Source of the DNA: Nocardioides pinisoli
GTDB taxonomy: Bacteria; Actinomycetota; Actinomycetes; Propionibacteriales; Nocardioidaceae
DNA: 64,000 nt
Reading direction: 5' to 3'
Assembly: GCF_024199985.1 (NCBI RefSeq)
Contig: NZ_JANARS010000007.1
Span: forward strand, 62,001-126,000
The notes below the pieces were generated by a model, which searched no databases, had not been told where the DNA came from, and saw only the letters and a list, made by a program, of their open reading frames with translations. Every line of letters begins with the position of its first letter. Positions within the stretch are counted from its first letter, which is position 1. The translations under genes and the position numbers were made by a program. This document shows positions 1-12,582 of the stretch, one piece after another.

Positions 1-203
1 GGGTGGTCGGCCAGGCGCGCCATCGCGTTGGCCTCGGCGGTGAAGAGGTACTTCTCGCGGTCGGTCAGCGGGACGTCGGGACGCACGACCTTGACCGCGA
101 CGCGCTGGCGCGGCCACTGCTGCTCGTAGAGGAAGACGTCGGCGAAGCCGCCGCTGCCCAGGTGCTCGACGAACGCGAACCCCGGGATGACAGGTGCGCT
201 CAC
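1..203 (-). CDS. Serine/threonine protein kinase, N-terminal part (cut by window edge)
   Basis: About 67 N-terminal residues are visible, starting at a GTG at 203. The glycine-rich loop LGSGGFADVF, the ATP-binding lysine in VAVKVV and an early alphaC glutamate (FTAEANAM) give the start of a eukaryotic-type (Hanks) protein kinase. The GTG overlaps the stop of the upstream FHA gene as GTGA, so the two are almost certainly one operon and probably work together: FHA domains bind phosphothreonine made by such kinases. The catalytic loop and any membrane or sensor domain lie outside the window. Confidence 0.85.
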   Translation of the reverse strand, partial: MSAPVIPGFAFVEHLGSGGFADVFLYEQQWPRQRVAVKVVRPDVPLTDREKYLFTAEANAMARLADH

Positions 204-1378
204 CGGGTGACCGCCCCCGCCTCGTAGCGGACGCTGTAGACGTGCGCCATGTCGAGCACCGTGCCCGGCTCGAGCACGTAGGCGTCACCGGGCCTCATGC
301 GCTCCGGGTCGCGACCCGGGGGAGCGATCGTGGTGCCGCCGCGACTGTCGAGGTCACGGGCGATGACGTCCCAGCCGTCGAGCTCGATGTGGAGGTGCCG
401 GCGCGACACGAAGGAGTGGTCGGACGGCAGGTGGACCAGGTGCGGCCAGTCGGTGCTGCCCTCGGCCGGCGCGGGCTTGCGGCCCAGGATCACGCCCCGG
501 TCGAGCGGGACGACCTCACCGGTGGGCAGTCGCAGCCCACCCAGGGCCGGCCGGTCCAGCCGCCGCGGCTCCTGCGGGGCAACGCGCTGGTGGCAGACCC
601 GGCACTGCGGCGAGATGGGCGGAGTGAGGTGGCCCAGCGGACAACTGACGGCCAGCACCGTCGGAGCAGTGCTGTGGCTGAGGTGCGCCGGTCGCAGCGA
701 CGTGGCGCCGTCGTGGTCGTCGGGCGCCGGTGCGGGGGTCGGTGACGCCGGGGGGCGGATCGTGGTGTGCGCCCCCTCCTCGATGCGCTGCATCATCAGC
801 GGGTCGGGCTCGGAGGTGTCGACCAGGGCTCCCGTGTCCTCGACCGGCCTCCGCAGGCGGGTGCGCGGAGGAGGTCCGTCGGGACCCTTGGCGGCCAGGA
901 TGGCGTCGGGGATCCCGTCGATGAGAGCGGTCGTCGGCGCCGGCGGCGGGGTCTCCTGGAGGCGGTGCGCCGGCGCGGTGCGGGCTGTGACCGGCGTGAG
1001 CTCGACCCGGTCGGCGGCGACCACCCCGCCCACCAGGCGCCGGGTGGCCACCAGGCTGTCGGGGTCGGCGCCCGCGTCCAGGCTCAGCACCCGTGCGGGA
1101 CCGGCGAGGCGTACGTGACCGGCTCCGCGGGACAGCGTCGTCGACGCGCCGGACGTGAAGTCGACGAGCGCGAGACCGGGCGGGTCGCCCTCGAACGCCT
1201 TCTCGGCGATCGCCAGCACCCGCTCGGCGACGCTCGCCCCGGACGGCGCGGTCAGCGTGACGGCGTCCCAGATCTCCTGGACGACCCGCTCGTCGCCGGG
1301 GTCGGTCAGCAGCACCCAGTGCGCGCCACTGCCGACGAGCACACCAGCCCCACTGGCGTACCGCGCTTCCACGATCAA
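200..1378 (-). CDS. FHA domain protein with zinc-ribbon-like linker
   Basis: The C-terminal ~110 residues form a forkhead-associated domain: GVILGRKP, a conserved SRRH-type segment (SFVSRRHLHIEL), then DLDSRGGT. Such domains bind phosphothreonine peptides. Before it is a Cys pair motif (CPLGH...CRVCH) that looks like a small zinc ribbon, and a long Pro/Ala/Thr-rich linker. The N-terminal part (VEARYASGAGVLVGSGAHWVLL) is an uncharacterised beta-rich region. I chose TTG at 1378 because a GAGGGGAG ribosome site lies 6 nt upstream; ATG at 1423 is the alternative. It is transcribed away from the giant Ig protein gene and overlaps the kinase gene by 4 bp. Likely an adaptor or substrate of that kinase (inference). 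Confidence 0.82.
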   Translation of the reverse strand: MIVEARYASGAGVLVGSGAHWVLLTDPGDERVVQEIWDAVTLTAPSGASVAERVLAIAEKAFEGDPPGLALVDFTSGASTTLSRGAGHVRLAGPARVLSLDAGADPDSLVATRRLVGGVVAADRVELTPVTARTAPAHRLQETPPPAPTTALIDGIPDAILAAKGPDGPPPRTRLRRPVEDTGALVDTSEPDPLMMQRIEEGAHTTIRPPASPTPAPAPDDHDGATSLRPAHLSHSTAPTVLAVSCPLGHLTPPISPQCRVCHQRVAPQEPRRLDRPALGGLRLPTGEVVPLDRGVILGRKPAPAEGSTDWPHLVHLPSDHSFVSRRHLHIELDGWDVIARDLDSRGGTTIAPPGRDPERMRPGDAYVLEPGTVLDMAHVYSVRYEAGAVTR

Positions 1379-1463
1379 CGTCGGCTCCCCTCGTACACGC
1401 CCAACGGCTCCATCATCACCCATCACGCCTGTCCCGCGCACGTGGTCGGGATTTGTCGGGAAC

Positions 1464-1493
1464 TTGTCCGAACCTCTGCCACATACATACGCT
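1464..1493 (+). promoter_or_regulatory. Candidate promoter of the giant Ig/Fn3 gene
   Basis: TTGTCC (1464-1469) and TACGCT (1488-1493) are separated by 18 nt, matching the actinobacterial housekeeping pattern TTGnCn/TAnnnT. The predicted transcript would start near 1500 and have a leader of about 50 nt with AAGGGGG before the GTG at 1549. No experimental support. Confidence 0.4.
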
Positions 1494-1548
1494 CCTCCCG
1501 GGTGAGTGCGGCGGGCGTACCTCATCCGTGGGGCCAAGGGGGACTGGC

Positions 1549-4500
1549 GTGGCACGTGTGACTGCTCTGCGTCGACACCGGGCAGGCATCGCCTCCGGCG
1601 TCGCGCTGGCAATCGCATCCACCGCCGTCGTCGTCTACGCCGTGTCGGCCGACGGGTACAAGAAGCACGAGGCCGAGCTCAACGACGGCGGCGTGTGGGT
1701 CGTCAACGGCAAGAAGGGCTGGTCCGGCCGCCTCAACAAGCCGATCAACCAGCTCGACGGCGTCGTGCCGGGCGACAACGGCAAGGCGCGCCTCGACGTG
1801 GTGCAGGACGGCGCGGCCGTCGTCACCCTCGACGCCGGCACCAGCCGCGGACAGGTCATCGAGACCAGTCGGCTCGAGGCCCAGGACGGCGGCTCCGCCG
1901 CGATCCCGGTCACCGGTGACGTCGCCATGGCCGGTGGCACGCTCGCCACGGCGGACGCGGAGACCGGCGAGGTGTGGGCCGTCCGCTACGACGACCAGCT
2001 CGGCAAGCCGCTGGTCAGCGCCGTCGACCGCCAGGCCGAGCCACTGGCCGAGGCCGGCGAGGGGGCTGCCCTGACGGTCAGCCAGGCGGGGACGGTCGTG
2101 GTGACCTCCACCGAGGAGGGCACCGTCACGACGCTGGCCCCCACCGACGCCGGCTTCCGCAAGCCCCGCGCCCGCGACCTCCCCGGCGACGCGGGCCAGG
2201 TGTCCGACGTGACCACGGTGGGCGAGCGCATCGTCACCCTCGACGCCGATGCCGGAGTGCTCGGGGTCGTCGACGGTCCCACCGTCTCCGTCCCTCCCGG
2301 CAGCAGGCTCCAGCAGGCGGGACCCGCCCACGACACGGTGCTGGTGGGTGCCCCGGACGGGCTCCTGGCCGTGGACCTCGAGTCCGGCGACGTCACGACC
2401 GTCTCCGACAGGTCCGGCAACCCCGTCGAGCCGGTCCGCCTCGGGGCGTGCGCGTTCGGCGCCTGGTCCGGTGGTCGCGGCGCCGTGGCCGTGCAGTGCG
2501 GGTCGCAGGACGTCAACGAGAAGGGCCTCGGCGGCGACGCGACCAGCCTGGCGTTCCGGGTCAACCGCGGCGAGATCGTCCTCAACGACGCCAACAGCGG
2601 CACCGTCTGGGACGTGCAGCAGGACAAGCCGGTCCGGATCGACAACTGGGAAGCCTTCACGTCGAAGAAGAAGAACAAGGACGACGACGAGGAGAACGAG
2701 AACCAGAGCGAGGCCGACCGCCGCCCGCCCCGCGCCAAGCCCGACTCCTACGGCGTCCGCGCCGGGCGGACGACCGTGCTCCACCCGCTCGACAACGACT
2801 CGGCCCCGGAGGGCCGGCTGCTGAGCATCGTCGACGTGGACCAGCCGTCGGGCGGCGCCCGCGTCGAGATCAGCCCCGACGGCCAGACGCTGGTCCTCCA
2901 GATGCCCCAGGACGCACGGCCCGCCCGGTTCGACTACTTCATCGACGACGGCCGCAACGGCCTGTCCGCCAACGCCACCGTCGACGTCGAGGTGCGCGGC
3001 AGCGTGCAGAACGAGGCCCCCACGGTGCGCGAGGGTTGGAAGAAGCCGACCTACAAGGTGCCGCACCGGGGCGAGCTGGCCGTCCCCGTGCTCGCCGACT
3101 GGCGGGACGACCGCGACGGCGACACCCTGCTCCTCGACTCCGCGAAGGCCGTGGGCGGCGAGGAGACCGGGGCCACCGCCCGCACCACCGCGGACGGCCG
3201 GATCCGGTTCACCGCTCCGTCTGGCGCGGCCGACGGGCCACAGATCGTCCGCGTGGAGTTCGCCGTCACCGACGGTCGCTCGGCGCCGGTCCCGAAGTCG
3301 ATGAGCTTCCAGGTCCAGGCGCCCAAGGACCAGAAGGCCTACGCCCCGCAGGCCGAGCCCGACGTCGTACGTGGTGAGGTCGGCAAGCCGATCAAGATCC
3401 GGCCGCTGCTCAACGACCTGCCCGGCTCGGACCCCAACGCCCCCGACGCCGAGCTGTCCCTGGGCGGCAAGGTGCCGCAGCAGCCCAACGCCAAGGTGGT
3501 GACCGACCTCGACGCCGGCCAGCTCACGTTCACCGGCGAGCGGGCAGGCACCTACTTCCTCAGCTATGACGCGGGCTTCGGCAACGCGCCGCTCGACCAG
3601 GGCACCATCCGGGTCGACGTGCGGGCGCGCCCCAAGCGGGCCGCGGAGCCCATCGCCATGCCCGACACCCTCACCGTCTTCGGGCAGGCGCCGGGCATCG
3701 TCGACGTGCTGGCCAACGACCTCGACCCGGCGGGCGGGCTGCTGGTCGTGCAACGGGCCGTCGGGGACCGCGCCGGCCAGCTCGACGTCGCGATCGTCGA
3801 CGGACGCTGGTTGCGCATCTCGGCGTCCGGGCCCGACCTCGCGCCGGTGACGCAGACCGTGTCCTACACGATCAGCAACGGCACCAGCTCGGGCGTCAGC
3901 GGGGAGGTGGTGGTCACCCAGCGGCCGGCGCCGGTCGACAACACCCCCATCACGGTCTCCGACAAGGTCGTCGTGCGAGCGGGCGGCTCGGTGGCGGCGC
4001 CCGTGCTCGACAACGACGTCTCCCCGGCCGGCGACCGGTTGACCCTGCTGAGCAACGTGTCGAGCAGCGACACCCCGGGCCAGCTCCCGGTGGTCGCCCC
4101 CATCGACGTCACGGGCGACGTCGGCAAGGCCTTCGTGACCGGACGGGTGGTCCGCTACGTCGCGCCCGACGACGTCGAGGAGCGCGACACCTACACCGTC
4201 ACCTACGTCGCCCAGAACCTCGAGGGCAGGCGGGCCGACGGCACCCTCAAGGTGACCGTCGTGCCGGCCGACGACCCCAACGACGCGCCCGAGCCGCCGA
4301 CGCTGGAGGGCCGGGTCGTCTCCGGCGACGTCGTCAAGGTCCGCGTGCCCGGGGTCGGGGTCGACCGCAACGGAGACCCGGTCACCGTCACCGGCATCAC
4401 GTCCGCCCCTCGCCTCGGCCGGATCGAGGCCGTCGGGGGCAACTTCCTCGAGTACCAGGCCTATCCGCGCACGGCCGGCACCGACGAGTTCACCTACTCC

Positions 4501-7500
4501 GTCGTCGACTCCCAGGGCGCCTTCGCGACCGGCACGGTCCGCATCGCCGTCGTCGGGCTGGGGCAGCCCCAGCCGCCACTGGCCGTCGAGGACCGGCTCA
4601 CGGTCGAGCCGGGGCGTACGGCGACCTTCGACCCGCTCGCCAACGACTTCATCGCCTCCGGCGACTCGGTCGAGGTCGAGATCCTCGACGGCCCGGACGG
4701 CGCCCGCCTCGACCCCGAGACCAACCTGGTCAAGGTCCCGGCACCCGACTCGGCGAAGGCACCACCGACCGTGCTCGTCTACCGGGTCACCAACGGCATC
4801 GACGAGTCGCGATCGACGATGACGCTGACCACGGCCGACGACTACGACAACCCGCCGATCGTCTACGACGCCTTCGGCCGGGCCGACGACAGCGGGAGCG
4901 TCGTCGTGGACGTCCTGGACGGCGCCTACGACCCCGACGGGGCGGTCGAGGACCTCGAGGTGGTCGAGGTCTCCGGCGATCCGTCGGCCCGCGTGGTCGA
5001 CGGATCGCAGGTACGCGCCGACCGTGGCGAGGCCCCGAAGGTGCTTCCCTTCCAGGTCCGCGACGCCGACGGCGCGACGGCTGTCGCCTCCGTCTACATC
5101 CCGCCCACGGGCGACGGGCTTCCCTACGTCCTCCCCGGGTCGCTCATCGAGCTCGACTCCGGGGAGAGCACGACGGGCAAGGTCTCCGACTACATCGCCG
5201 CCCCCGACGGCGGCAAGGTGCGCCTCGCGTCCGGCCGTCGCTCGTGGTCCGCCTCGCCCACCGCCCTGACCGTCGGTCCGGACGGCGACAACCGGTTCAC
5301 GCTGTCGGCGCAGGCCGGCTTCCGGGGGCCCGGCTCGGTCCTCGTCGAGGTCACCACCGCCACCGACGCCAGCGGCAACGAGGACGCCACGACGACCGAC
5401 GACGGCGTCACGGCCATCCTCTCCATCCCGGTGGTGGTGGGTGACGACACACCGTCGCTCGAGTGCCCCACCAGCGTGATCCCGATGTCGGCCGGCCAGC
5501 GCTACGACCTCGACATCGCGACGTACTGCACGGTCTTCACCGTCGACCCCCGGGACGCCGTCGGCCTCGACTTCACCGCCGAGTGGAGCCAGGCCGTCGA
5601 CGGTGTGGAGCTCGGCGGCCCAGCGGGCTCCGTCGTGACCGTCACCGCCTCCGACGACGTCACCGAGGGCGGCGAGGCCGTGCTGACCGTGCGCGCCGGC
5701 GACAGCAACGCCCAGGTGGTGCGGTTCCAGCTGGACAAGGCCCCGCCGCCGCGTCTCAACCCGATCCGCGTCGAGACGATGGAAGCCGGGCAGAGCCGCA
5801 CCTACGACATGGCCGCCTACCTCCAGGCAGGTGTCGCCAACCCCGATCCCACCATCGTGCAGGTGCAGAACACCGGCACCCCCGGGGTCCGGGCGAGCGT
5901 CAACGGCGGCCGGCTGACGCTCACCGCCGACCGCGACACGCGTGGCGCCGAGGCCAGCTTCCGGCTGGTCGTCAGCGACGTCGACGACAGCGACCCGCCG
6001 TCCTCGCGCACGGCCGAGGGCCGCATCCAGTTCCGGGTCATCGGCACGCCGTCGGCGCCCGGTGAGCCCCGCCCCTACCCGCTGTCCGACGAGGTCGGCA
6101 CCATCAAGATGGGCTGGGCCCCGCCCGACGACGACGGGGGCGCTCCGGTCACCCACTACGTGGTGCGGGAGGAGAAGACCGACGCCCGGCAGCGGTGCGA
6201 CACCAACGAGTGCGTCTTCCGCAAGCTCAAGACCGGCGGCAACTACAGCTTCCGCGTGCAGGCGGTGAACCGCGTCGGCGGCAGCGCGTGGAGCAACCTG
6301 TCCCGCTCCGCCCGGGCCGACACCCAGCCCGGCCGGGTGCAGAACATCCGGATGGCCGGCCGGGACGACGGCCAGATCACCATCGCCTGGGACAAGCCGT
6401 CCACCAACACCTCGAGGATCCTCGACTACACGATCACGTGGCCCGGCGGCCCGACCGCGGTCGTGCCCGGCAACCAGCTGAGCTACACCGCCCTCGGCCT
6501 GGACAACAACGACCGTTACGTCTTCACCATCAAGGCCCAGAACCAGGTGGGCTACTCGCTGCCGCGCTCCTCGACGGAGATGCAGCCGCTCGGCACGCCG
6601 CCGGCACCCGCGGCCCCGGCGCTGACCGACCTCGAGTCCGGCGCCAACCAGACCAACATCCGGATCGCCTGGCAGGCAGTGCTGCCCGAGGGCCCCGGAC
6701 CCACCGTGTACACGGTCAGCTACTCCAACGGCGTGACCGCGGGGGTGGTGCCCGGCTGCCAGCGCCTTGCGTCATTGACCTGCACCCACGCCGGCGTGCC
6801 CTACGACGGCCTCACCTACACCTACACCGTCGTCGCCGCCAACCAGCCGGGTGACCAGCCCGGCAAGCGCTCGCAGCCGAGCGCGGGCACCTCGATCGAG
6901 GCCGTGGGGCGCCCGGCAGCCTGGGGCGCCTTCGACGTCTACGCCACCGGCAACAGCCAGGAGGCGGAGGTCAGGTACACCGTGCCGGACTCCCGCGGTG
7001 ACGTGAGCAAGGTCGACATCCTCGTGGCGGGAGGAGTGGTCCGCACGATCCCGCAGCAGACCGGCACCACCACCCAGCGGATCCCCACCCCCAGCAACGA
7101 GCAGGCCTACCCGGTCCAGCTCCGCGTGTGCAACGAGGACGCGCCGGTCGGCTGCACCCTGAGCGCGGTGCAGAACGTGCAGAGCTTCGGCCGCCTCGAC
7201 GACGCCCTGGGGTCGGTCCAGCCGATCGTCAACGGCAAGTCGATCCAGTGGGTGATCACGGGCACGAGCAACGGCGACCCGGCCGTGCTCGAGTACGAGA
7301 TCCGCAACAAGGGCGGCGGGGGCACGGGGACCCAACGGTTCCGACCCACGGGAGTGGGCTCGTTCAGCTTCACCACCCCGGCGTTCAGCACTGAGAACTG
7401 GGCCCAGGAGCAGGAGATCTTCGTCGCGATCGGCGACGACGCGCCCGGTGATCGCGGTCAGGACTCGGGGTCGAACAGGGTCACCTCTGCGCCGCCGCCC

Positions 7501-7818
7501 CCGCCGACCGTCAGTATCAGTCGTGGTGACCGCTGCCAGGACGACACCGAAGGGATGCCGGCGTGCGCCACTGTCGCCGAGCCGAAGTGCACCGCCGACT
7601 CGTGCGCCATGGCAGTGTTGACCCTCAGGTTTGCGGAGGGGACGGCGACCAACTGGAACTGTGACTTCGACAAGTTCTGGCCGCGGCGCTCGAAGAGCGG
7701 CTCGGGCGACTTCTCCGGCCAGGTCGACGCCTACTACGCGTCGGGGGAGCAGGTCGTCGGCAACTGCAGCTTCGCCGGTGGTCTGGGCAAGGTCGTCTTC
7801 GACACGACATTCCCCTAG
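1549..7818 (+). CDS. Giant membrane-tethered Ig-like/fibronectin type III protein (2089 aa)
   Basis: Residues ~12-33 form one hydrophobic segment that should anchor or export the protein. Residues ~35-370 are beta-rich with repeated short strands, perhaps a propeller. A charged linker follows (~372-395, KKKNKDDDEENEN). Then come tandem cadherin-like/bacterial Ig modules, recognised by repeated D(S/T/K)..V..G and LxNDxxP motifs (for example near residues 395, 595, 698, 797, 913, 1007, 1101). Three fibronectin III modules start near 1501, 1593 and 1684. The last ~100 residues hold six cysteines. The start is GTG with AAGGGGG upstream; earlier in-frame starts lack a ribosome site. It leads an operon-like row with MoxR, DUF58 and a transglutaminase-like gene. 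Likely a long cell-surface rod; ligand unknown. Confidence 0.8.
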   Translation: MARVTALRRHRAGIASGVALAIASTAVVVYAVSADGYKKHEAELNDGGVWVVNGKKGWSGRLNKPINQLDGVVPGDNGKARLDVVQDGAAVVTLDAGTSRGQVIETSRLEAQDGGSAAIPVTGDVAMAGGTLATADAETGEVWAVRYDDQLGKPLVSAVDRQAEPLAEAGEGAALTVSQAGTVVVTSTEEGTVTTLAPTDAGFRKPRARDLPGDAGQVSDVTTVGERIVTLDADAGVLGVVDGPTVSVPPGSRLQQAGPAHDTVLVGAPDGLLAVDLESGDVTTVSDRSGNPVEPVRLGACAFGAWSGGRGAVAVQCGSQDVNEKGLGGDATSLAFRVNRGEIVLNDANSGTVWDVQQDKPVRIDNWEAFTSKKKNKDDDEENENQSEADRRPPRAKPDSYGVRAGRTTVLHPLDNDSAPEGRLLSIVDVDQPSGGARVEISPDGQTLVLQMPQDARPARFDYFIDDGRNGLSANATVDVEVRGSVQNEAPTVREGWKKPTYKVPHRGELAVPVLADWRDDRDGDTLLLDSAKAVGGEETGATARTTADGRIRFTAPSGAADGPQIVRVEFAVTDGRSAPVPKSMSFQVQAPKDQKAYAPQAEPDVVRGEVGKPIKIRPLLNDLPGSDPNAPDAELSLGGKVPQQPNAKVVTDLDAGQLTFTGERAGTYFLSYDAGFGNAPLDQGTIRVDVRARPKRAAEPIAMPDTLTVFGQAPGIVDVLANDLDPAGGLLVVQRAVGDRAGQLDVAIVDGRWLRISASGPDLAPVTQTVSYTISNGTSSGVSGEVVVTQRPAPVDNTPITVSDKVVVRAGGSVAAPVLDNDVSPAGDRLTLLSNVSSSDTPGQLPVVAPIDVTGDVGKAFVTGRVVRYVAPDDVEERDTYTVTYVAQNLEGRRADGTLKVTVVPADDPNDAPEPPTLEGRVVSGDVVKVRVPGVGVDRNGDPVTVTGITSAPRLGRIEAVGGNFLEYQAYPRTAGTDEFTYSVVDSQGAFATGTVRIAVVGLGQPQPPLAVEDRLTVEPGRTATFDPLANDFIASGDSVEVEILDGPDGARLDPETNLVKVPAPDSAKAPPTVLVYRVTNGIDESRSTMTLTTADDYDNPPIVYDAFGRADDSGSVVVDVLDGAYDPDGAVEDLEVVEVSGDPSARVVDGSQVRADRGEAPKVLPFQVRDADGATAVASVYIPPTGDGLPYVLPGSLIELDSGESTTGKVSDYIAAPDGGKVRLASGRRSWSASPTALTVGPDGDNRFTLSAQAGFRGPGSVLVEVTTATDASGNEDATTTDDGVTAILSIPVVVGDDTPSLECPTSVIPMSAGQRYDLDIATYCTVFTVDPRDAVGLDFTAEWSQAVDGVELGGPAGSVVTVTASDDVTEGGEAVLTVRAGDSNAQVVRFQLDKAPPPRLNPIRVETMEAGQSRTYDMAAYLQAGVANPDPTIVQVQNTGTPGVRASVNGGRLTLTADRDTRGAEASFRLVVSDVDDSDPPSSRTAEGRIQFRVIGTPSAPGEPRPYPLSDEVGTIKMGWAPPDDDGGAPVTHYVVREEKTDARQRCDTNECVFRKLKTGGNYSFRVQAVNRVGGSAWSNLSRSARADTQPGRVQNIRMAGRDDGQITIAWDKPSTNTSRILDYTITWPGGPTAVVPGNQLSYTALGLDNNDRYVFTIKAQNQVGYSLPRSSTEMQPLGTPPAPAAPALTDLESGANQTNIRIAWQAVLPEGPGPTVYTVSYSNGVTAGVVPGCQRLASLTCTHAGVPYDGLTYTYTVVAANQPGDQPGKRSQPSAGTSIEAVGRPAAWGAFDVYATGNSQEAEVRYTVPDSRGDVSKVDILVAGGVVRTIPQQTGTTTQRIPTPSNEQAYPVQLRVCNEDAPVGCTLSAVQNVQSFGRLDDALGSVQPIVNGKSIQWVITGTSNGDPAVLEYEIRNKGGGGTGTQRFRPTGVGSFSFTTPAFSTENWAQEQEIFVAIGDDAPGDRGQDSGSNRVTSAPPPPPTVSISRGDRCQDDTEGMPACATVAEPKCTADSCAMAVLTLRFAEGTATNWNCDFDKFWPRRSKSGSGDFSGQVDAYYASGEQVVGNCSFAGGLGKVVFDTTFP

Positions 7819-7875
7819 CGCCGCGGAGCGCGACCCCCCACGCCTCGATCGATCCCACACCACCAGGAGCACCTC

Positions 7876-8847
7876 TTGACGATCAGCCACGAACAGGCCG
7901 AGTGGTTCAAGTCGACCTTCGACCAGCTCACCGACAACATGGAGAAGGCCGTTCTCGGCAAGCGCCACGTCGTCCGGCTCGCGCTGACCTGCCTGCTCTC
8001 GGAGGGGCACGTCCTGCTCGAGGACTTCCCCGGCACCGGCAAGACGATGCTGGCCAGGGCACTCGCCAACACCGTGCAGGGAAGCCACGCCCGCATCCAG
8101 TTCACGCCTGACCTGCTGCCGTCCGACGTCACCGGCGTCACGGTCTACGACCAGCACAAGGGCACGTTCGAGTTCCACCCGGGGCCGATCTTCCACACGA
8201 TCGTGCTGGCCGACGAGATCAACCGGGCCTCGCCCAAGACGCAGTCGGCGCTGCTCGAGGTGATGGAGGAGGGCCGGGTCACCGTCGACGGCGTCGCACA
8301 CCCGGTCGGCAGGCCGTTCCTCGTCATCGCGACGCAGAACCCCATCGAGCAGGCGGGCACCTACCGCCTCCCCGAGGCGCAGCTGGACCGCTTCCTCATG
8401 AAGACCTCGGTCGGCTACCCCGATCGTCAGGCCACCGTCGAGCTGCTCAACAACGCTGCCGTCCGCGACCGCGCCTCCCTGGTCACCCCGGTGATCACCG
8501 CTGCCACGATCGCGCAGATGAGCGGCCTGGCCGACGAGGTCTACGTCGACCCGGCCGTCATCGGCTACGTCGCCGAGCTGGCCGAGGAGTCGCGCCGGCA
8601 GCCGCACGTCAAGCTCGGGCTCTCGGCGCGCGGGTGCCTGGCGTTCGTCCGCGTCGCCAAGACGTGGGCCGCCGCCGACGGTCGCGACCACGTGGTCCCC
8701 GACGACATCAAGGACCTCGCCGAGCCCGTGCTCTCCCACCGCCTGCTGCTCGACGCCGAGGCGCAGTTCAGCGGCGTCGACGTGCAGACGGTCATCTCGC
8801 GCCTGCTGGACGCCGTCGCGCCGCCGACCGATCGCGTGGGGGCCTGA
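7876..8847 (+). CDS. MoxR-family AAA+ ATPase
   Basis: 323 residues. Walker A is at 51-58 (DFPGTGKT) and Walker B near 108-114 (VLADEINRA), followed by the typical sensor region VIATQNPIEQAGTY and a C-terminal lid domain. MoxR proteins are cytoplasmic chaperone-like ATPases thought to help assemble or activate partner complexes, usually with von Willebrand or DUF58 partners. The start is TTG at 7876 with AGGAGC 5 nt upstream. It sits between the giant Ig gene and DUF58, so these are its probable clients (inference from order and family habits). Confidence 0.93.
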   Translation: MTISHEQAEWFKSTFDQLTDNMEKAVLGKRHVVRLALTCLLSEGHVLLEDFPGTGKTMLARALANTVQGSHARIQFTPDLLPSDVTGVTVYDQHKGTFEFHPGPIFHTIVLADEINRASPKTQSALLEVMEEGRVTVDGVAHPVGRPFLVIATQNPIEQAGTYRLPEAQLDRFLMKTSVGYPDRQATVELLNNAAVRDRASLVTPVITAATIAQMSGLADEVYVDPAVIGYVAELAEESRRQPHVKLGLSARGCLAFVRVAKTWAAADGRDHVVPDDIKDLAEPVLSHRLLLDAEAQFSGVDVQTVISRLLDAVAPPTDRVGA

Positions 8848-8854
8848 CGCCTCG

Positions 8855-10045
8855 ATGGGGTCCATGCGGCAGCGGTTGAACGACGCGCTCGAGGTCATCA
8901 AGCCGATCGGCTGGCTGGTCCTCGGCCTCGGCCTGGGCGCGCTCCTGGTCGGCGTCGTCGCGCAGTGGCGTGAGCTGGCGGTCCTGGGCACGGGGTGCCT
9001 CCTGCTCGCGGTGCTCGCCCTGCCCTTCCTCCTCGGCCGGACGTCCGTGTCGGTCGACCTGCGGCTCCAGCCCGAGCGGGTGGCGGCGGGGGAGTCGGTC
9101 GCGGCCGGCGTGCTGGTGGTCAACCGCGCGTCGTCGCGCCTGGTCCCGACCACCCTGGAGGTCCCGGTCGGCTCGGCCGTCCACCGCTACGGCATCAGCT
9201 CGCTCGCTCCCGGGGCGACCCACGAGGAGTCGTTCACCATCCGGACCGAGCGTCGCGGCGTGATCGCGGTCGGGCCGGCGATGACCCGTCGGGGCGACCC
9301 GGTCGGCATCTTCTCCCGCGACGTGGTCTGGACCCCGGTGCGGGAGGTCCTGGTGCGCCCGCACCTCGTGCCCATGGAGTCCCTCGGCGCCGGCCTGCTG
9401 CGCGACCTCGAGGGAGTCTCGACCGACGCCGTCAGCCAGAGCGACCTCGCGTTCCACGCGCTGCGCGAGTACGTCCCCGGCGACGACCTGCGCCACATCC
9501 ACTGGCGCTCGTCGGCGAAGGTGATGGCCTCGACCGGTGAGTCCGCCCTGCTCGTGCGGCAGTACCTCGACACCCGGCGCAGCCACGCCACGATCGTGGT
9601 CGACGACCGGCTCGACTCCTGGTCGGACCCCGACGACTTCGAGACCGCGATGGCGGTGGCCGCGTCGATCGCGGTGCGAGCGGTGCTCGACGAGTTCGAC
9701 GTGTCCTTCGTGTGCGGTGGGCACGCCTCCTCCGGCGCCGACGGCCACCTCGCCCTCGACGCCGTGTGCCGGGCGGACTTCGGCGACCGCGGCCTGGTCG
9801 AGTCCGGGCGGCAGGCCAGCATGCTGGCGCCCGACACCAGCCTGGCCTTCTTCATCGGCGGGAGCGAGTCACCGTTCACCGACCTGCTGCGTGCGTCGGC
9901 GGCGTTCCCTCCCGAGGTGCGCCGCTTCGGCATCGTCGTCGAGCCCCACGGCAACAGCCGGGTGACCGAGACGGGCGGGCTTCCCGTGCTCCACCTCGCC
10001 GCCAAGGAGGACCTCGGCGGCCTCCTGCGCTGGAGCGTGCGATGA
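8855..10045 (+). CDS. DUF58 domain membrane protein
   Basis: 396 residues with two hydrophobic segments in the first ~62 residues and the DUF58 hallmark REYVPGDDLRHIHWR near residue 205. DUF58 proteins contain a vWA-like fold and are the standard partner of MoxR ATPases. The gene begins 7 nt after moxR (ATG 8855; a second ATG at 8864 is possible) and overlaps the following gene by ATGA. Beta-strand-rich sequence between the membrane segments and DUF58 may be extracytoplasmic. Its biochemical role is unknown in most bacteria. Confidence 0.9.
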   Translation: MGSMRQRLNDALEVIKPIGWLVLGLGLGALLVGVVAQWRELAVLGTGCLLLAVLALPFLLGRTSVSVDLRLQPERVAAGESVAAGVLVVNRASSRLVPTTLEVPVGSAVHRYGISSLAPGATHEESFTIRTERRGVIAVGPAMTRRGDPVGIFSRDVVWTPVREVLVRPHLVPMESLGAGLLRDLEGVSTDAVSQSDLAFHALREYVPGDDLRHIHWRSSAKVMASTGESALLVRQYLDTRRSHATIVVDDRLDSWSDPDDFETAMAVAASIAVRAVLDEFDVSFVCGGHASSGADGHLALDAVCRADFGDRGLVESGRQASMLAPDTSLAFFIGGSESPFTDLLRASAAFPPEVRRFGIVVEPHGNSRVTETGGLPVLHLAAKEDLGGLLRWSVR

Positions 10046-12582
10046 CGTCCACCCCACGACGTACGCCGTCCACCCTGCTGCGGCCCACCGCCGGACAGCG
10101 CCGCGCGGACCCCCAGGCCGCCCGAGGCCCGGTCGCGACGACGGGCACGCGCACCCGGGTGCGCCGGCACGCGCTGGTGCCCGACCGCGACGCGTGGGTC
10201 GACATGGGCTTCACCCTGGCGCTGGCCGCCGTCGCGCTGACGGCGTTCGGCTCCTCCTTCACCGGGTCGACCTACCTGGTGGTCGGCCTTCTCGGTGCGG
10301 CGATCGCGGTCGTGGTCACCCACCTGACGCGCGCGGCGGGCTGGCCGGTCATCTCGTCGGTCGTCATCTGCCTGGTGGTGTTCTTCCTCCTCGGGGGCCC
10401 GCTCTGCCTGCGCTCCCTGGGCGACACCTACGCCCTCCCCGGCGCGTCGACCCTCGCCCGCGTGGCGGACCAGGCCGTCTTCGGCTGGAAGGACCTGCTG
10501 ACCACGCTGCCGCCGGTCGACGGTGACGGCCCGCTGCTCGTGCTGCCGTGGCTGTCCGGGCTGGTCGCCGGGCTGGTCGGCACCGGGCTGGCCCGCCAGC
10601 CGGTGCGCCGGGCCTGGCTCTCGTCGCTGCTGCCCGTGGCCGGGATGACCGTCGCCCTGTCAGGGGCGATCCTGCTCGGGGTGCGCCACCCGCAGTCCCT
10701 CGTCGTCCAGGGCGTCGTGTTCACCGCGCTCGCCCTCGCCTGGCTGGCGGTCCGCGCCCGTCGGGCGAGTGCCACCGTCCACGGCGGCAGCACGTCCTAC
10801 GTCCGCGGCGTCGGCGCCGTGGTCATGCTCGGGCTCGCGGCGCTCCTCGCCCACCCGGCGAGCGCGCTGTTCGTCGGTGACGACTCGCGGCGCGCGGTGG
10901 CCCGCAACTGGGTGGAGCCGCCCTTCGACATCGGCCGCTACCCCTCGCCGCTGGCCGGCTTCCGCAAGTACGTCGATCTCAAGGGCGAGCCCAACCCCGC
11001 CAACGTCTACGACAAGACCCTGCTCGACATCGAGGGCGTCCCGGCCGAGACCCGGGTCCGGTTCGCGGCGATGGACCGCTACGACGGGATGGTGTGGGGC
11101 GCCACCGACGACGCGCTCCCCGGCCCCGCCGACGACTCCTTCCAGCGGGTCTCCTCCACGATCGACAACCCGGTCGAGGGGGAGGAGGTCGACGTGACCA
11201 TCACCCTCGGCGAGGGGTGGACCGGGGTCTGGCTGCCCACCGTCGGCGCGCTGCGGTCGATGGCCTTCGAGACCAGCGACGCTCGCGCCAAGGCCGAGGT
11301 CTTCCGCTACAACCTCGCCACCTCGACCGCCGTGGTCCCCACCGGCCTGCAGAGCGGTGACCGCTACTCCTTCACCGCGGTCCAGCCCGACGACGAGCTC
11401 ACGGAGGAGACCGTCGGTTCCGCCGACCTGACGCCCCTGCCGGCGGGAGCGGCGTTCATCCAGGGCCCGACGGAGAAGTGGACCGAGGAGGCCGGCACCG
11501 ACCCGATGGACCGGGTCCTGGCCGCGGCGGAGCACCTGCGCTCGGAGGGCAAGTACTCCGACGGCATCGGGCGCACCGAGCGCATCTACGTGGCCGGCCA
11601 CAGCGCGTGGCGCCTGTCCGACGAGTTCGTCAACGCGCCGCAGATCGTGGGCAACGACGAGCAGTACGCCGCGACGATGGCGCTGATCGCCAACGACATC
11701 GGCGTACCCGCCCGCGTCGTGCTCGGCGCCGTCGTGCCCGAGGGGGGACGGGTCACCGGCAAGGACGTCTCGGCCTGGGTGGAGCTCCGGGCCGCCGACG
11801 GGTCGTGGAAGACCCTGCCGACCGAGGCCTTCATGTCGGACACCCCTCCCGCCGACCAGGTGCCGGAGACCAACACGCCGATGTCCGGGACGGTCATCCC
11901 GCCGCCGAACCCGATCCCGCCGCCGTCCGACGCGGGGGAGCAGAGCGACGCCGACCTCAAGGAGCGCAAGGCCACCCGCAAGAAGAAGGCCGAGGAGGAC
12001 GAGGAGGGCCTGATCCCGGGGGCCCCCGCGTGGATCGGCGTCGTGGTGACCTACGTCGGCCTGCCCGTCCTCGTGCTCGCGCTGCTGCTGGGTGCCGTGA
12101 TCGGGCTGAAGGCGTGGCGCCGGCACCGTCGCCGCCGCGCGACGTCACCCTCGGCGCGCTTCGTCGGGGCCTGGCGCGAGCTGGTCGACCACGCCCGCGA
12201 CCTGGGCCAGCCCGTCCCGCTCGGCCCGACGGTCACCCGGCGCGAGCAGTCGGTGGGCATCGTGTCGGGACAGGCCGGAGCCCTGGCGCGCCGCGCCGAC
12301 AGCTTCGTCTTCGGCCCGAGCGTGCCCGAGCCCGCCGCAGCGGCGACCTACTGGGAGTCGGTCGACGCCGAGCGGCGGGCGATGTCGCAGGGAGTCGGCC
12401 GGTGGCAGCGGGTCCGGGCCGCGATCAGCCTCCGCTCGCTGCGGCGTACGACGTCCGCGCCGGCGCCCGACGCCGAGCCGCGGGGGGTGGAGGGCCCCGC
12501 CCCCGCGCCCGGGCGTGTCCGCGAGGTGGCCCGGCACGTGCGCGGCCTCGCAGATTGGCGTTCTCGCCGCACGCCTGACTAA
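10042..12582 (+). CDS. TgpA-like transglutaminase-fold membrane protein, catalytic triad apparently lost
   Basis: 846 residues. Several hydrophobic segments fill the first ~280 residues, a soluble region follows, a transglutaminase core lies near 530-600, another membrane helix spans ~664-692, and a basic cytoplasmic tail ends the protein. In family members the core reads GxCEQxA...xxHAWVE...WxxxDPT. Here it reads GNDEQYA, DVSAWVEL and SWKTLPTEAF, so Cys, His and Asp are replaced by D539, S577 and L592. The surrounding fold residues (IGVPARVVLGA) are intact, so this is a conserved but probably non-catalytic protein, perhaps a scaffold. The start ATG overlaps the DUF58 stop. Confidence 0.85.
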   Translation: MTSTPRRTPSTLLRPTAGQRRADPQAARGPVATTGTRTRVRRHALVPDRDAWVDMGFTLALAAVALTAFGSSFTGSTYLVVGLLGAAIAVVVTHLTRAAGWPVISSVVICLVVFFLLGGPLCLRSLGDTYALPGASTLARVADQAVFGWKDLLTTLPPVDGDGPLLVLPWLSGLVAGLVGTGLARQPVRRAWLSSLLPVAGMTVALSGAILLGVRHPQSLVVQGVVFTALALAWLAVRARRASATVHGGSTSYVRGVGAVVMLGLAALLAHPASALFVGDDSRRAVARNWVEPPFDIGRYPSPLAGFRKYVDLKGEPNPANVYDKTLLDIEGVPAETRVRFAAMDRYDGMVWGATDDALPGPADDSFQRVSSTIDNPVEGEEVDVTITLGEGWTGVWLPTVGALRSMAFETSDARAKAEVFRYNLATSTAVVPTGLQSGDRYSFTAVQPDDELTEETVGSADLTPLPAGAAFIQGPTEKWTEEAGTDPMDRVLAAAEHLRSEGKYSDGIGRTERIYVAGHSAWRLSDEFVNAPQIVGNDEQYAATMALIANDIGVPARVVLGAVVPEGGRVTGKDVSAWVELRAADGSWKTLPTEAFMSDTPPADQVPETNTPMSGTVIPPPNPIPPPSDAGEQSDADLKERKATRKKKAEEDEEGLIPGAPAWIGVVVTYVGLPVLVLALLLGAVIGLKAWRRHRRRRATSPSARFVGAWRELVDHARDLGQPVPLGPTVTRREQSVGIVSGQAGALARRADSFVFGPSVPEPAAAATYWESVDAERRAMSQGVGRWQRVRAAISLRSLRRTTSAPAPDAEPRGVEGPAPAPGRVREVARHVRGLADWRSRRTPD

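Follow-up and report, generated by a model that had tools for sequence, protein, structure and literature searches.

A transglutaminase-fold membrane protein without a catalytic triad in an FN3-MoxR-DUF58 gene row of Nocardioides pinisoli, a candidate binding or scaffold subunit

Rows of genes encoding a MoxR ATPase, a DUF58 protein and a transglutaminase-like protein are widespread. In Bifidobacterium, such a row is known as the PFNA operon and, in the sections of the papers that describe it, has been proposed to be a host-communication system (PMC6803598, PMC8430577). There, the kinase Pkb2 is reported to phosphorylate the MoxR protein of the row (PMC8430577), and the tgm product (TGM) is termed a transglutaminase or presumed to be a cysteine protease (PMC6803598, PMC8430577), the term transglutaminase recurring in the portion of a 2025 paper that deals with this protein (PMC12067865). 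The passages on TGM in the PFNA papers, supplements aside, nowhere remark on an absent Cys. MoxR proteins with vWA partners have been proposed as remodellers of protein complexes (PMC7159879). Regarding the transglutaminase fold itself, the purified domain of Pseudomonas aeruginosa TgpA was assayed for transglutaminase activity (PMC3507681), and menin is described as a scaffold (PMC10318531).

We analyzed a window of 64,000 nucleotides from Nocardioides pinisoli (contig NZ_JANARS010000007.1, positions 62,001 to 126,000), in which the order fn3 - MoxR ATPase - duf58 - tgm is found on the + strand. The first gene (1453..7818, with the true start probably downstream of 1453) encodes a giant exported protein, FN3, with one N-terminal membrane anchor, several Big_9 Ig domains and two fn3 domains according to Pfam and hydropathy. 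It is followed by the gene for a MoxR AAA+ ATPase (7876..8847; AAA_3 209 bits, AAA_lid_2 75 bits) and by that for a DUF58 protein with two membrane helices (8855..10045), whose DUF58 match of 18.7 bits lies under the 23.4 cut-off. The gaps within the row are short, and duf58 shares its last 4 bases with the beginning of tgm, an overlap suggesting translational coupling. The same row is present in relatives, and the placing of TGM in an Ig/FN3-MoxR-DUF58 row by the earlier note is supported. On the - strand, divergent from the row, lie a gene for an FHA-domain protein (200..1618; Pfam FHA 27.3 bits) and the start of a Ser/Thr protein kinase gene (1..203; Pkinase 132.5 bits), the remainder of which is outside the window. 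The cluster from kinase to TGM (1-12582) lies among ribosomal genes, with map on one side and infA on the other: the sequence past the kinase reads as a TerC-like gene, map, adk and secY, and infA and ribosomal genes follow downstream of TGM. Where a DxSxS metal site would be expected, the DUF58 protein reads VVDDRLDSW and lacks such a site. In many DUF58 proteins of FN3 rows, even the first Asp has given way to Ser or another residue, and the DUF58 proteins adjoining classical TgpA mostly read LDTR.

TGM (10042..12582, + strand) is encoded by an ORF of 846 aa that is intact in the host genome assembly. A hydropathy scan predicts an N-terminal polytopic membrane region of six or seven helices (approximately residues 51-279, 10192..10878) and a C-terminal membrane helix (residues 665-683, 12034..12090), a layout shared with the TgpA family; the basic tail after this helix (residues 690-846) is probably cytoplasmic. 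Between the membrane parts lies an ectodomain (residues 300-640, 10939..11961), delimited by the Pfam match and an AF2 model, of which residues 485-589 match Transglut_core (PF01841) with 39 bits (cut-off 23). A Pfam search of the protein gave no match to TgpA_N (PF11992) or DUF4129, and a search of NCBIfam gave no match. This model, which covers residues 285-650 (pLDDT 86.9, pTM 0.82), retrieved TgpA first in Foldseek, as 6g4h (E 7.4e-11) and then 6g49 (E 1e-10); a sequence profile reaches 6g49 at E 1e-3 only. That the transglutaminase fold is kept, as the earlier note had claimed, is thus borne out by the Pfam match, by the modelled core and by the purifying selection on it described below.

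All three catalytic motifs of TGM are degenerate. GNDEQYA (residues 537-543, 11650..11670) has D539 at the position of the catalytic Cys and DVSAWVEL (from residue 575, 11764..11787) has S577 at that of the His, both as the earlier note had read them. For the Asp motif, SWKTLPT (from residue 588, 11803..11823), its claim of degeneracy stands, but L592 is not the replaced residue: the motif of the relatives is W-x-x-[F/L]-[D/E]-P-T, in which L592 pairs with F/L, and alignment either puts P593 at the third catalytic position (W+4) or leaves the Asp deleted. In the model, D539 opens the central helix (model residue 255, helix 255-269). Asp, Gly and Ser are structurally easy at a helix start, which may explain which residues replaced the Cys. 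The only Cys of the entire protein, C110 and C122, lie in predicted membrane segments, leaving an ectodomain with zero Cys and therefore no substitute nucleophile. An alternative Cys elsewhere in the ectodomain is thereby ruled out, and with it the other Cys-His-Asp set that the earlier note had named as the case against its reading. With no triad residue at the catalytic positions and no Cys outside the membrane part, Cys-based transamidation or proteolysis should be impossible, and the sequence supports the view that TGM is no Cys-His-Asp enzyme.

In order to place this state among relatives, we surveyed samples of 297 genomes of the phylum and 396 of the order by HMM, and 148 of the class with MoxR as a bait that is independent of the TGM sequence, and read the loci one by one. 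Fetched loci were picked for spread and score, and the tallies are counts, not natural frequencies. Among fetched loci with context, the Cys is absent in 42/42 TGMs of FN3-MoxR-DUF58-TGM rows from 15 families, MoxR-baited rows included. MoxR-DUF58 loci in which no FN3 was detected comprise 16 with the Cys (11 families) and 20 without it (9 families); the latter rule out that Cys loss goes with FN3 alone and indicate that Cys-less forms would need some ligand besides FN3. Within Nocardioides, every orthologue found is Cys-less, the C-to-D state recurs in orthologues from independent assemblies, and named relatives reach 96% identity in the TGM core. A genome scan based on an 11-row alignment yielded 80 named loci, 80/80 of them Cys-less, which were kept out of the Cys statistics because one of the search patterns, G[DN]DEQYA, favoured that state. 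Close homologues beside an Ig/FN3-MoxR-DUF58 row therefore lack the triad as well, contrary to the outcome that the earlier note had held would speak against it.

Cys-less members carry D, E, G, A, S, P or H where the Cys would be; with such variation, position 539 has no newly fixed nucleophile. The His and Asp/Glu persist in only part of the family, with both kept in 22/68 non-redundant PFNA-like relatives from the unbiased sets. A further motif, GHSAWRL in TGM (G519, H520, R524; 11596..11616), emerged from the comparison of relatives as conserved in the Cys-less family: GH lies within the 40 aa that precede the Cys motif in 176/187 Cys-less relatives vs 6/47 Cys-bearing ones, so GHxxxR is enriched in, and not an exclusive signature of, the Cys-less family.

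The survey also returned a second Cys-less TgpA-like kind (GTSEQFA, GYAEQHA and similar) beside MoxR-DUF58 with no FN3 detected, in families f6, f10, f92, f96, f97 and others (loci L076, L250-L253, L255-L257, L259, L261-L263, L265-L268, L271 and L276); of these, L252 was checked and retains matches to TgpA_N and DUF4129. Several Nocardioides genomes (G007, G019, G022; loci L021, L023, L027-L030) carry at least two diverged TGM copies, and in one group TPFQY replaces the Cys motif. The TGM orthologue on contig C4 of G022 (L008 / L020) is split over two overlapping frames, by a frameshift or an assembly error. A typical actinobacterial FN3-MoxR-DUF58-TGM row in a MAG labelled Acidobacteriota (L217) is probably due to a binning error.

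In an unrooted tree of 121 rows, the PFNA-like rows form one side of a branch with a support of 99.7. Constraining the Cys-bearing rows to one clade improved the likelihood by 14 log units, such that a single Cys change suffices, and one change is likewise needed in an earlier tree of 124 rows, for which the third catalytic column was counted at W+4. The His changed 10-13 times and the Asp/Glu 16-18 times. The claim of the earlier note that exactly the triad had been removed together is thus not supported: the single Cys change, the many changes of the other two residues and the 22/68 relatives that keep both suggest that the Cys was the first to go, with erosion of the rest following. We infer that the Cys change was a loss from the intact triad of TgpA outside the group. 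The protein is under constraint. Simple NG86 counts against ten close Nocardioides orthologues (L158-L167) gave an omega of 0.18-0.26 over the full length of TGM and of 0.015-0.21 over residues 480-600, where the core dS is 0.24-0.57; more distant comparisons of the core (L168-L172) gave 0.30-0.48. A fold kept under purifying selection while its Cys was lost family-wide corresponds, at the level of sequence, to the pattern of a pseudoenzyme.

The bifidobacteria could be located within this family. A sequence that we take to be a genus-specific 16S primer, CTCCTGGAAACGGGTGG, is present in 9/10 genomes of family f71 and in 0/8 others, and together with the row itself this identified f71 as Bifidobacteriaceae. 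Their TGMs read GDSEQYA at the Cys motif and T, E or K in place of the His; the third position is mostly Y, with Asp in one genome (G582).

We propose, with a probability of roughly 0.6, that TGM is a transmembrane pseudo-transglutaminase of TgpA ancestry that would act as a binding or scaffold subunit linking the exported FN3/Ig protein to the cytoplasmic MoxR-DUF58 machine; the scaffold or peptide-binding role suggested in the earlier note is thus plausible. The former substrate groove would face the cell surface and hold either a cell-wall peptide or a peptide or domain belonging to the exported Ig/FN3 protein. The membrane part and the basic tail would touch the DUF58 protein, itself anchored in the membrane. 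The resulting complex could then be remodelled by the MoxR ATPase ring, leading to assembly or release of the surface protein, with the timing possibly set by the neighbouring kinase and FHA protein.

Pseudoenzyme domains are often structural parts, and a first alternative, which we consider improbable, is that function resides in the membrane and tail parts alone, with the dead ectodomain as a passive stalk whose fold is kept for stability. The C-terminal tail is indeed constrained too (omega of ~0.16-0.31 in close orthologues), but almost all close comparisons show the core evolving more slowly, and residues such as H520 and R524 hardly vary even between proteins that share 25-45% identity.

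About equally improbable, or slightly more so, is a role as a dead paralogue that regulates the cell's own active, classical TgpA, e.g. by competing for substrate. The host genome does encode such a protein, with TgpA_N at 149.8 bits, an intact Cys-His-Glu and its own MoxR-DUF58 (contig C11 of G000, L079), but in three genomes identified as Bifidobacteriaceae (G552, G582 and G673) the Cys-less TGM is the sole Transglut_core protein and is therefore kept without an active paralogue. The coexistence of classical and Cys-less forms in one genome provides a natural pair for testing what the fold does without catalysis.

Less probable again, at long odds, is an enzyme of other chemistry with a site rebuilt around, e.g., H520, D539 and E540. 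The strong constraint on the site would fit such an enzyme, as would the near invariance of G519, H520, R524 and E540 in PFNA-like proteins and the lack of conservation of H520 in the Cys-bearing group. Against this, the residue aligned with D539 varies among members, GH is present in some Cys-bearing proteins too, and E540-Q541 are inherited from the ancestral motif. A sequencing error, or an inactivation that this strain underwent recently, is ruled out for practical purposes by the intact ORF, by the same state in Nocardioides orthologues and in those of many genera and 15 families, and by the purifying selection on the core.

The pseudo-transglutaminase reading also lends itself to a broader and more tentative proposal, which we hold to be possible though rather less than an even bet: an ancient loss of the Cys, spanning many actinobacterial families, may have converted an enzyme of the TgpA type into a receptor or adaptor that spans the membrane and couples a giant exported Ig/FN3 protein to a cytoplasmic MoxR-DUF58 ATPase machine under kinase control, so that the row would be a surface-protein assembly or signalling system and not an enzyme system, gut bifidobacteria included. 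If the Cys-less state holds, binding hypotheses should replace enzymatic ones for the bifidobacterial TGM.

In comparison with known systems, TGM resembles TgpA of P. aeruginosa (PDB 6g49, 6g4h; PMC3507681), its best fold match, in being a polytopic membrane protein with an extracytoplasmic transglutaminase core, and classical TgpA-like proteins of the same phylum also adjoin MoxR and DUF58; unlike TGM, TgpA keeps the triad, and TGM also has no match to the TgpA_N and DUF4129 families. EPB42 and menin (PMC10318531) share the papain/transglutaminase superfamily fold and, like TGM, have lost the catalytic residues, but they are eukaryotic, stand in an unrelated context and have no membrane anchor with MoxR-DUF58 partners. 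The row also matches the PFNA operon of Bifidobacterium, which, as set out in the sections describing it (PMC6803598, PMC8430577), has the same genes in the same order fn3 - MoxR - duf58 - tgm and, as in the window, a Ser/Thr kinase and an FHA protein nearby; the window differs in that these two genes run divergently to the row. The Bifidobacteriaceae TGMs found here belong to the same clade as that of the window and are likewise devoid of the Cys and the His.
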